A stretch of DNA of 64,000 nucleotides, taken from the NCBI RefSeq assembly GCF_037392515.1, contig NC_090292.1, positions 44,505,747 through 44,569,746 on the forward strand. Direction: 5' to 3'. Source of the stretch: Haliotis asinina (lineage: Eukaryota > Mollusca > Gastropoda > Lepetellida > Haliotidae). Positions 23,600 to 36,202 of the stretch are shown one piece after another. The stretch's first letter is position 1, and each line of letters begins with the position of its first letter. The notes beneath the pieces are model-generated. The model searched no databases. It was not told the origin of the DNA and worked only from the letters and a program-made list of their open reading frames with translations. The position numbers and the translations under genes are program-made.

Positions 23600-26500
23600 T
23601 CACTTATGAGATATCTGCGTTCCTTCAGTTTGTGATTGTCGTTTCTTCTTAGAAAACAATGACATATTCTGTAGTCCAGAGTGTCGTTTGGCCTTTTGTT
23701 GTGGTTCCAATAGTTCTACAATGTGCCTGTTCTTTCTCTTTTGGGCGAGATGCAAAACATCATTCCCTGCATTGTCCACTAGTGTTAAATCAGCGCCCTT
23801 TTTTCGGAGATACTTAAACACAGCATCTTTGCCATAAGCAACTGATGTCATGACGGGTGTCACACCGGCATTGTCTCTGCTGTTGATATCAACAGAGTCT
23901 ATGATGTGCTCAATCACAGGAAGCAGACCATGCCTACTAGAAAGATGTAAAAGAGACTGTCCGTCCTTGTCCACCAGAGTGCGATCGGCTTTATGTTCTA
24001 CCAGGAATTTATACACATCGATATGGCCTCCACAAACTGCTCTCATCAGTGGTGTTTGACCATTTTTGCCTCTGATGTCGATATCAAAGCCACCAGTCAC
24101 CTCATTTACGATTGTTAAAGTATCACCTAGTCTGGGCGTATGCTGATCAACAGCCTGTTTCTGACCTTGAGGATTCCCTTCCAAGTATGTCACAAGATGT
24201 TCTACAATAGCTTTGTTCCCTACCTCACACGCCAGATGTAGGACATTGTATTGGTCGTCGTCGGTCACAGTGTGATCAGCATTCTGACTCACAAGCAAAT
24301 CGAACACATCTTTCTTTCCAGCCAAAGCTGCAGCCATGATTGGTGTTCGACCATGTCTTCCAGTAGCATTGACGCCACACTTCCGTATCAGATATTTTAC
24401 AATAGAATAGTCCCCACCCTCACAAGCAAGGTGTAAGATAGTGTCTTTGTTGTCATCAACCAGTTCGATATTAGCTTTCCTCGACAACAGTAGTTTAAAC
24501 AGGTTGGGTCGGGCATGCAATGCTGTGACCATTATTGCTGGTCTTCCTTTGTTTCCCAGACAGTTGATATCGGTTTTGGGCAACACCGTGTCCACAATGG
24601 ACTTATTCCCCCCGACACATGCTAAATGTAACACGGAATTGTTGGAGTTATCCCGAAGTCGTACGTCGGCCCCCTTTGATACAAGCAGTTCAAACACGCT
24701 ATGTACACCATTCGCAGCTGCAAACATCACTGGCGTCCATCCGTTGTTTCCACGGCCGTTGATGTCAAACATCTGCAGTAGATGTTTCACAATGGAGACA
24801 TTTCCTCCATGACATGCAAGATGAAGAAGATTATTTCCCTTGTCATCTGATTGGCGATTAGCCTTCTGTGGATCCAGGAGGTGTTCAAAAGCTTTCTTAT
24901 GTCCATTTACAGCTGCCTTCATGGCTGGACTCCAGCCGTGTTTTCCCCGAATGTTGACGTCAAGTTTTGTTTTCATATGCACCAACATGGTCACGTCATG
25001 AACAGTGCATGCCGCATGAAGGAGACTGTTGTTATCTTCATCTGTCAGTGTCAGGTCAGCTTTCTCAGACACGAGAAAGTCAAACACACCCATTCTCCCA
25101 GACAATACAGCACACATTAATGGAGTTTGTCCATTTTTGCCGCGGGTATTTATTTTTACGTCGGGTAGCAGGTTTTCGACAGTCGCCTTACCATCACGCT
25201 GACATGCGAGATGGAGCAGGGTATTGTTGTTGCTATCCCTTAAACCGAAATCGATTTTCTTGGTTTTTACATTATCACTTTTCTTCTTGGGATGTATAAA
25301 ACAGTCCGACACACCCTCAAATCCAAATACTACTGCACACATCACTGGTGTCCAGCCTGTTCTTGCTTGACTATTAAGAAACTGCTTGGCATAGGAATCA
25401 GGATTACGTCTGACGAAATGTTTTACATGTCTTGCTGTGGGTGCATGGCCATATAGACACGCCAAATGTAGGATGTTGTAGTTGTTGTCATCACACTGAG
25501 TGACGTCAGCTCCTTGTTTCACGAGGATGTCAAAACATTCCATTTGTTCAAAGACAACTGCATACATTAACGGTGTCCAGCCATTCAAACCACTTCTGTT
25601 GATATCACACTGACTTACAAGTTGTCCCAATGCATATTTGTTCCCAGTGACACAAGCGTGCCACAGAATGTGATGCTTGGCATCTTCAGACACTTCATAA
25701 AGATGTTTGATCTTTTGAGAAAATTCGTCGGCTATAGACTCGTGTTTCCATATGGGATGCCAGATGTATTCAGTTAAAGCACCACTGGTGAAAGCATCAA
25801 CCATTCTGTCAACAAGTATTCTCCTGTTGTCCTCTGAGAAAGGAATAGAGAGCTTGTGTTTATGAGTAGGGACAGACTCAGGTTGCTGATCCTGGATGTG
25901 GTCAAGGAGAAAAGTAATACTGAAGTGTTCGAGAGTAAACTTTGGTTCAATATTAAATAAAACAGAAACACACACATCATAAATCAAAGAATGTGAAAAT
26001 GTTGTCATCTTTCCTTCTGTCAGAAACGTACCGTAGAAACTCCGGACCGCCTTAGCGACATCCTGTCTGGTGAATGTCTTCACAAGGGCTGTGACTGCAT
26101 GAAGGTGGGCCTCTAGGTCTGGGTTATCTCTATCAGTCTGATGGTGACTGTCTGAACTGACGGCTTCAGGAGTTTCAGGTTTCAATTGATGGTCTAGTCT
26201 GCCACCTTCAGTGTCTAGATTAGTGTCTGCACTCACAGCTTCTGGCTTTACTTGGCTGTCTGACCTGGCCACTTCCACTGGTTCTACCTGACTGTCTGGG
26301 ATGGCAGTTTCAGGTCTCAGTCGACTGTGAGGACTGGTAGTTTCAGACGTCAAAAGATCGTCTGGAGTGACACCTTTAGGCTCTAGTATGGTGTCTATAT
26401 TGACACCTTCAGGTTTTGATTGATTTTCACATTCATACTTCACTTTGCTGTCTGGGCTGACACTTCCCAGCGTCTCTTGACTGTCTGGACTAGCAACTTC

Positions 26501-36202: not shown

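Follow-up and report, generated by a model that had tools for sequence, protein, structure and literature searches.

A predicted membrane-spanning nSTAND3-ankyrin protein with an EGF-like ectodomain and its relatives in abalone (Haliotis)

STAND ATPases are nucleotide-controlled oligomerisation switches. An earlier note on the DNA considered here held that STAND/NLR proteins of animals are normally cytosolic, which would leave a version with its own ectodomain without precedent. This is contradicted by the available descriptions of AjNLRC4 from Apostichopus japonicus, anthozoan TM-NLRs and ectodomain-TM-TRADD-N proteins of Crassostrea virginica (PMC8699970, PMC5094078, PMC8195603). AjNLRC4 is described as having an extracellular Ig part, a transmembrane part and an intracellular NACHT domain; it was tested as a membrane receptor and reportedly binds bacteria, oligomerises and drives phagocytosis, which gives an experimental precedent for outside-in signalling (PMC8699970). 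The proteins of C. virginica are outlined as a Cys-rich ectodomain, a TM segment, DED and TRADD-N, with STAND or ankyrin tails in some of them (PMC8195603). In bacteria, the excerpted account of Avs5 gives the order Sir2-nSTAND3-repeats (PMC12931631).

The gene under study belongs to Haliotis asinina and lies on contig C13, in a stretch of 64,000 nucleotides (C13 44,505,747-44,569,746) called the window below. Reassembly of the exons from the sequence confirmed the strand and extent first proposed for the gene (minus strand, 36202 to 23600). Instead of the nine exons proposed, ten were obtained, with GT-AG at their borders and phases that fit; together they encode 1515 aa, and the proposed 1505 codons correspond to this chain minus one 33-nt exon. 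Omission of exon 3 (33464-33432) gives 1504 aa and a stop, or 1505 codons; the count is the same when exon 7, also of 33 nt, is omitted instead, and the earlier note was silent on which one had been left out. A protein search retrieved an NCBI protein of H. asinina (P0001, 1504 aa, 'isoform X2') identical to the chain, exon 3 excepted.

All exons are on the minus strand. Exon 1 (36150..36202) carries the end of the 5' UTR, the start codon and the signal peptide (MVFIRLILMLV..), and the acceptor AG directly upstream of 36202 implies that the 5' UTR includes another exon. Exon 2 (34899..35189; 291 nt, phase 1-1) encodes the end of the signal peptide and the entire Cys-rich EGF ectodomain, exon 3 (33432..33464; phase 1-1), a Pro/Thr-rich stalk, and exon 4 (30331..30445), the remaining stalk and the membrane span. 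A basic stop-transfer sequence, RRRRKRG, and a juxtamembrane segment are encoded by exon 5 (29953..30054), which is followed by a microexon of 14 nt (exon 6, 29749..29762) and by three exons of phase 1-1 encoding acidic juxtamembrane sequence, namely exon 7 (29225..29257), exon 8 (28864..28902, 39 nt) and exon 9 (27971..28036, 66 nt). Exon 10 (23600..27420) sits within a 1294-codon open frame and contains the nSTAND3 ATPase, a helical region, a low-complexity linker, the ankyrin repeats and the stop codon. By a simple consensus count, the nine donors rank in the top 5.4% or better among the 798 GTs of the gene, and the acceptors, which are weaker, in the top 1-27% among its 793 AGs.

The frame is kept when any single one of exons 2, 3, 5, 7, 8 and 9 is omitted; it is broken without exon 6 (stop after 214 aa) or without exon 4 (stop after 137 aa), so a single product with both the ectodomain and the ATPase must also contain the span. 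A chance exon chain was ruled out, given the annotated protein, the existence of paralogues and a second gene of H. asinina, that of protein P0002, which repeats the order of ectodomain exon, TM exon and large exon.

Mobile and repetitive elements were found around these exons. Intron 3 contains a LINE reverse-transcriptase remnant (30669-32840, plus strand; RVT_1 at 31041-31625). Another LINE, with endonuclease and reverse-transcriptase frames, occupies 13228-16525 of the plus strand, more LINE-like frames were seen by eye at about 7.4-12.2 kb, and a minisatellite with repetitive open frames on both strands (LLTVTIQMFSVCLY) is located at 44991-45563. The gene is flanked by Cys-rich exons of other EGF-type genes (6117-6614 and 52150-52731, minus strand), which were recognised by tblastn and gave no Pfam match.

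The order of parts proposed for the protein, that is, a signal peptide, an EGF-like domain, a single span, a P-loop STAND-type NTPase and about 19 ankyrin repeats, was borne out by the sequence, from which the architecture of a type I membrane STAND ATPase can be predicted with near certainty. The ectodomain includes 14 Cys within residues 20-106 and one N-glycosylation sequon, N47. Its EGF module has no match in Pfam; in a fold search, the predicted structure of the module was nearest to the EGFs of SCARF1, Tie2, laminin and Notch ligands (best E 3.1e-3, none at or below 1e-3), and a sequence search of solved structures gave no meaningful relative. The membrane span is strong and lies at residues from about 138 to 160, with a mean hydropathy of 3.67 over residues 140-158, and the acidic juxtamembrane stretch on its inner side contains no tyrosine. 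According to a motif scan, NPxY and an ITAM pair are absent across the whole tail.

The nSTAND3 profile PF20720 matches at 27134..27382 of the minus strand with 54.6 bits against a cut-off of 27.2 (E 1.3e-14), and the ankyrin matches reach 323 bits. Profile positions 1-81 of 155 are covered here, whereas relatives P0045 and P0047 match over 1-154. Both motifs first used to identify the domain, Walker A (GGPGEGKTS, residues 279-287; 27287..27313, minus strand) and Walker B (CIIFDDIF), are intact, and both GKT and DD are kept in 43 of the 43 aligned ankyrin-type proteins described below. By profile and motifs, the protein is to be classed as an nSTAND3 STAND protein, and it is probably an active ATPase switch. 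The sensor-1 strand reads IFTT[ED][ST] or similar and is free of arginine in all 43 aligned proteins; in some other nSTAND3 exons of H. asinina (L002, L007/L008) it is TSR. As a rule, STAND proteins have an arginine in sensor 1, and its lack means that the ATPase cycle may differ.

The helical region is split in two by the low-confidence linker (residues 536-735; 25943..26542, minus strand), the length of which varies greatly across the family; its repetitive SDSQVKPE-like sequence is probably a coding minisatellite. The ankyrin repeats occupy residues from about 821 to 1480 (23708..25687, minus strand), with alternating xGxTPxM and LLHLAC types; the count of about 19 consists of 18 starts found by pattern and one type-A repeat (around residue 1205) found by HMM. 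Besides ankyrins, no signalling or effector domain was found among the 14 Pfam matches of P0001 at E up to 1, and the N-terminal place of the usual STAND effector is taken by the ectodomain and TM segment.

The protein search listed 57 proteins, among which P0001-P0044, including P0001 of the window gene itself, are Haliotis proteins of the ankyrin type. Judging from legible names and contigs, some of the names being incomplete, they belong to H. asinina, H. rubra, H. rufescens and H. cracherodii. At least 14 Cys precede a predicted N-terminal span in 39 of these 44 proteins (the span of P0039 is weak, 2.1), and the N-terminal half is partly or wholly missing in the other five (P0009, P0029, P0041, P0042 and P0044). 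A stricter motif test was passed by 34 of the 44. No EGF-TM-nSTAND3-ankyrin combination was found outside Haliotis in protein searches requiring shared 5-residue words; because of this requirement, of length limits and of the scoring of the best 8000 candidates in one search, diverged relatives from other genera could be missed. The literature matches listed contained no paper on this Haliotis family, most subscription journals being outside their coverage.

Several relatives have nSTAND3 and lack ankyrins (P0045-P0049 and P0058-P0061), with two P-loops each in P0045-P0049. These relatives yielded 16 Walker B motifs, and in every one His, Arg or Asn stands in place of the first Asp. It is possible that such proteins, several of them with two nSTAND3 domains, are partner or regulator subunits. 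In a tree of 53 ATPase sequences, midpoint-rooted for drawing, all ten halves of P0045-P0049 cluster together, and four ankyrin-type proteins of H. cracherodii (P0027, P0037, P0039 and P0043) stand on their side; the other 39 ankyrin-type proteins form one group. Within-species pairs in H. asinina are the window gene with P0002 and P0038 with P0040.

In the genome of H. asinina, at least 22 scored matches to PF20720 were found among 173 first-look candidates, spread over many contigs; this number is a lower bound, because the window gene is absent from them. At six of eight nSTAND3 loci (L001, L003 and L005-L008), ankyrins were seen by eye in the same open frame; L007 and L008 are an identical sequence on two contigs. 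None of 20 other nSTAND3 loci had both an EGF exon and a TM exon in the approximately 8.7 kb upstream, a distance beyond which exons are missed, and the same test was positive in the window gene, which served as a control. One hydrophobic stretch without EGF was noticed at L018 and low-complexity pattern matches at L026.

With the ectodomain exon as query, a genome search in which 150 of 1133 candidates were scored gave 151 matches (E up to 1e-3), 150 of these matches being listed. A hand-chosen subset, from which weaker, partial and multi-EGF matches were excluded, comprised 73 ectodomain matches (11 on C13, 54 on C4 and 8 on C18) and 45 of 61 ATPase matches; in the full tally every listed match was restored. 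On C13, an nSTAND3 match follows on the same strand within 20 kb for 10 of the 13 listed ectodomain matches: nine of the eleven full ectodomain exons, at distances of 3.1-16 kb, and one partial match inside one of those genes. The nearest ATPase to the unpaired exon at 53301434 is 37 kb off, past another ectodomain exon, and the unpaired exon at 54586715 has no ATPase within 60 kb. Off C13, none of the 137 listed ectodomain matches (C4 60, C18 8, C7 31, C2 22, C3 14, C1 1 and C112 1) has nSTAND3 downstream within 20 kb or even within 40 kb. Viewed from the other side, an ectodomain match is present within 20 kb upstream of 11 of the 19 listed ATPase matches on C13, versus none of the 42 elsewhere. 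The simplest reading of these data is that two families, each expanded separately, were fused once on C13, as the positions of the matches suggest; the reverse order of events or a loss of the combination elsewhere is possible.

The matches on C4 (at least 60, at 0.8-12 and 48-49 Mb) and C18 (at least 8) represent a large surface-protein family with no listed nSTAND3 nearby. The C18 copies, whose scores equal those of certain C4 copies, perhaps belong to the other haplotype. At four C4 loci (L029, L030, L033 and L034), no ATPase match was found in about 8-9 kb after the ectodomain exon. One of them, L030 (C4:48580000-48589800, minus strand), contains, by eye, an ectodomain exon, an ankyrin exon without an ATPase match and a 395-codon transposase-like frame.

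Comparison of the window gene with its P0002 paralogue, situated 488 kb away, gave dN 0.060 and dS 0.143 (ratio 0.42) for 1143 codons of exon 10, and one replacement with zero silent changes for 96 codons of the ectodomain exon. The following 300 intron bases are identical in the two genes, and the preceding 300 bases are 90% identical; the shared tract corresponds to 34600-35189 of the window and C13:44052005-44052292. Such near-identity of the exon and the following intron, next to only 90% identity before them, fits local exchange (gene conversion). In this pair, as substitution counts indicate, exon 10 is under constraint, positive selection left no sign, and the ectodomain is homogenised. 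There was no sign of positive selection on the ligand face of the ankyrins, with a dN/dS of 0.21 against 0.37 at the remaining ankyrin positions (one paralogue pair, counting method). For residues 736-820 the ratio is above 1 and rests on 10 versus 2 changes; no claim is made of it.

When its cysteines are disregarded, the ectodomain has diverged to about the same degree as the ankyrins over 741 family pairs, and in closer pairs (ATPase identity 0.7-0.9) it is slightly less alike than they are. A hypervariable ectodomain as a sign of pathogen recognition is thus unsupported, its variability being similar to that of the cytosolic parts. The opposite idea, that the ectodomain is the best-conserved part, arose relative to the window protein alone and was not confirmed by the 741 pairs.

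Among proteins with similar outer parts, CED-1, Draper and MEGF10 have an EMI domain, many EGF repeats and the tail motifs NPxY and YxxL. The abalone protein shares with SCARF1, MEGF10, Draper and CED-1 an EGF-type ectodomain and a single span, SCARF1 being the best structural match, but it has one 14-Cys module, no EMI, no NPxY or ITAM, and an ATPase-ankyrin tail. An orthologue of Draper/MEGF10 was rejected on the basis of tail motifs, the lack of an EMI match and the single 14-Cys module. A cytosolic NLR was also rejected, since Pfam at E up to 1 gave neither NACHT nor LRR and the span is obligatory when both halves are present. The other nSTAND3 genes of H. asinina (L001, L003 and L005-L008) are similar, by eye, in carrying nSTAND3 and, after it, ankyrins on a single large exon.

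Avs5, as excerpted, resembles the abalone protein in its nSTAND3 ATPase followed by C-terminal repeats and differs in the N-terminal Sir2 effector, with no ectodomain or span mentioned in the excerpt (PMC12931631). TANC1/2 likewise combine a STAND-type P-loop with ankyrin repeats but contain TPRs, have no EGF part in the available account and are described there as scaffolds rather than membrane-spanning proteins (PMC5533708); membership in the TANC group was rejected, as no TPR match follows the ankyrins in Pfam at E up to 1. The described proteins of C. virginica share a Cys-rich ectodomain and a TM segment ahead of a death/immunity-type module, as well as a lineage-specific molluscan expansion (PMC8195603). 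They differ in having DED and TRADD-N after the span, neither of which is seen among the abalone Pfam matches at E up to 1, the NCOA6-clade TRADD-N model being perhaps outside the Pfam set; membership in this oyster family is not indicated. AjNLRC4 is similar in the arrangement of an outer ectodomain, a span and an inner STAND-class NTPase (in the abalone protein, Walker A at 279 follows the span) and differs, in its excerpted description, by an Ig ectodomain, NACHT and two predicted spans, with no ankyrins mentioned (PMC8699970). The abalone protein has neither an Ig ectodomain nor NACHT in Pfam at E up to 1. By analogy, it may work like a transmembrane STAND receptor, a rare kind with known animal examples.

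In our opinion, the family is best explained as one made in Haliotis by fusion of a SCARF/MEGF-like ectodomain, encoded by a single exon, and a TM segment to a large nSTAND3-ankyrin exon, with members acting as nucleotide-gated clustering switches at the cell surface working outside-in, an explanation that, taken as a whole, we lean towards. Surface location, ligand binding, autoinhibition, direction and response, as we infer them, would be as follows. At rest, the ankyrin array would keep the ATPase monomeric. When the EGF ectodomain is engaged, or clustered on a microbe, a dying cell or a neighbouring cell, the ATPase would be released and oligomerise, and the clustered ankyrin arrays could then bring in cytosolic partners for a response of the immune or engulfment type. 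The one-protein receptor-to-switch system envisaged earlier stands in its domains, order and topology, which are read from the sequence, and its direction, from extracellular recognition to switch, is our interpretation. Outside-in signalling seems somewhat the more probable direction and was placed first by a modest preference, because a scavenger-receptor-type EGF module is best known for binding. The explanation is weakened by the lack of any effector but ankyrins, of an ITAM pair or NPxY and of the sensor-1 arginine, and by an ectodomain that is small, homogenised in one pair and about equal in variability to the cytosolic parts, which is not what a diversifying pathogen receptor would show.

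Signalling in the opposite direction we regard as unlikely and yet as the strongest of the alternatives. Here, the ankyrin array would sense a cytosolic ligand of pathogen or damage origin, the ATPase would oligomerise, and the span and EGF ectodomain would cluster, marking the cell for neighbours or phagocytes or altering adhesion. An N-terminal effector with a C-terminal sensor is the usual STAND layout, as outlined for such proteins (PMC12931631), and it is the ectodomain and TM segment that stand where the effector would be, no other effector having been identified. The near-identical ectodomain of the paralogue pair, without a silent change, against the exon 10 dS of 0.143, points the same way, as does the occurrence of the same ectodomain type at 60 C4 and 8 C18 listed matches, none with a listed nSTAND3 within 40 kb downstream. 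However, gene conversion at random may account for the homogenisation of a single exon pair, over the 741 pairs the ectodomain shows no special constancy, and the ankyrin ligand face has no excess of replacements. In addition, the recombinant ectodomain of AjNLRC4, the nearest tested protein, is described as binding microbes (PMC8699970). In its fullest form, also doubtful and a shade less probable, this alternative is a reversed receptor, in which a cytosolic STAND-ankyrin sensor would cluster its own EGF ectodomain, so that a damaged or infected cell alerts its neighbours, one fusion having captured a gene-converted ectodomain from a large surface-protein family.

Less probable again is a non-immune membrane scaffold, similar to TANC1/2, which would be a regulated assembly platform at cell junctions, in neural tissue or in the mantle. 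The order of STAND and ankyrins is common to TANC proteins, for which a postsynaptic scaffold role and a predicted switch are described (PMC5533708), and dN/dS is below 1 across exon 10 overall, but copy-number differences and within-species duplicates resemble a conflict or immune family more than a housekeeping scaffold, and no TPR match was obtained. An annotation artefact, with the EGF/TM exons coming from a different gene and the ATPase-ankyrin exon being expressed by itself, could draw on the long open frame around exon 10, on the other nSTAND3 exons checked, which have no EGF/TM exons nearby, and on the family members being all gene predictions, five of 44 without the ectodomain or the span, but it is very improbable in view of the identical annotated NCBI chain (exon 3 excepted), the Cys-rich N-terminus and span in 39 of the 44 Haliotis proteins and the ten of 13 listed C13 ectodomain matches that precede a same-strand nSTAND3 within 20 kb.

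Returning to the surface clustering switch, the new part seems to be the EGF-TM-nSTAND3-ankyrin combination and its expansion in abalone. Many members, bearing misleading automatic names such as 'protein phosphatase 6 regulatory ankyrin repeat subunit', would escape surveys of immune genes based on NACHT and LRR. The data suggest that a surface EGF part was added once to an nSTAND3-ankyrin module, for which no membrane part was detected elsewhere in the genome, and that the combination then multiplied in abalone. If so, this would be a second molluscan path from a cytosolic STAND switch to a surface receptor, beside that of the oyster TRADD-N proteins, and it offers a clear way to ask whether a STAND switch can be driven from outside the cell or can act outward.
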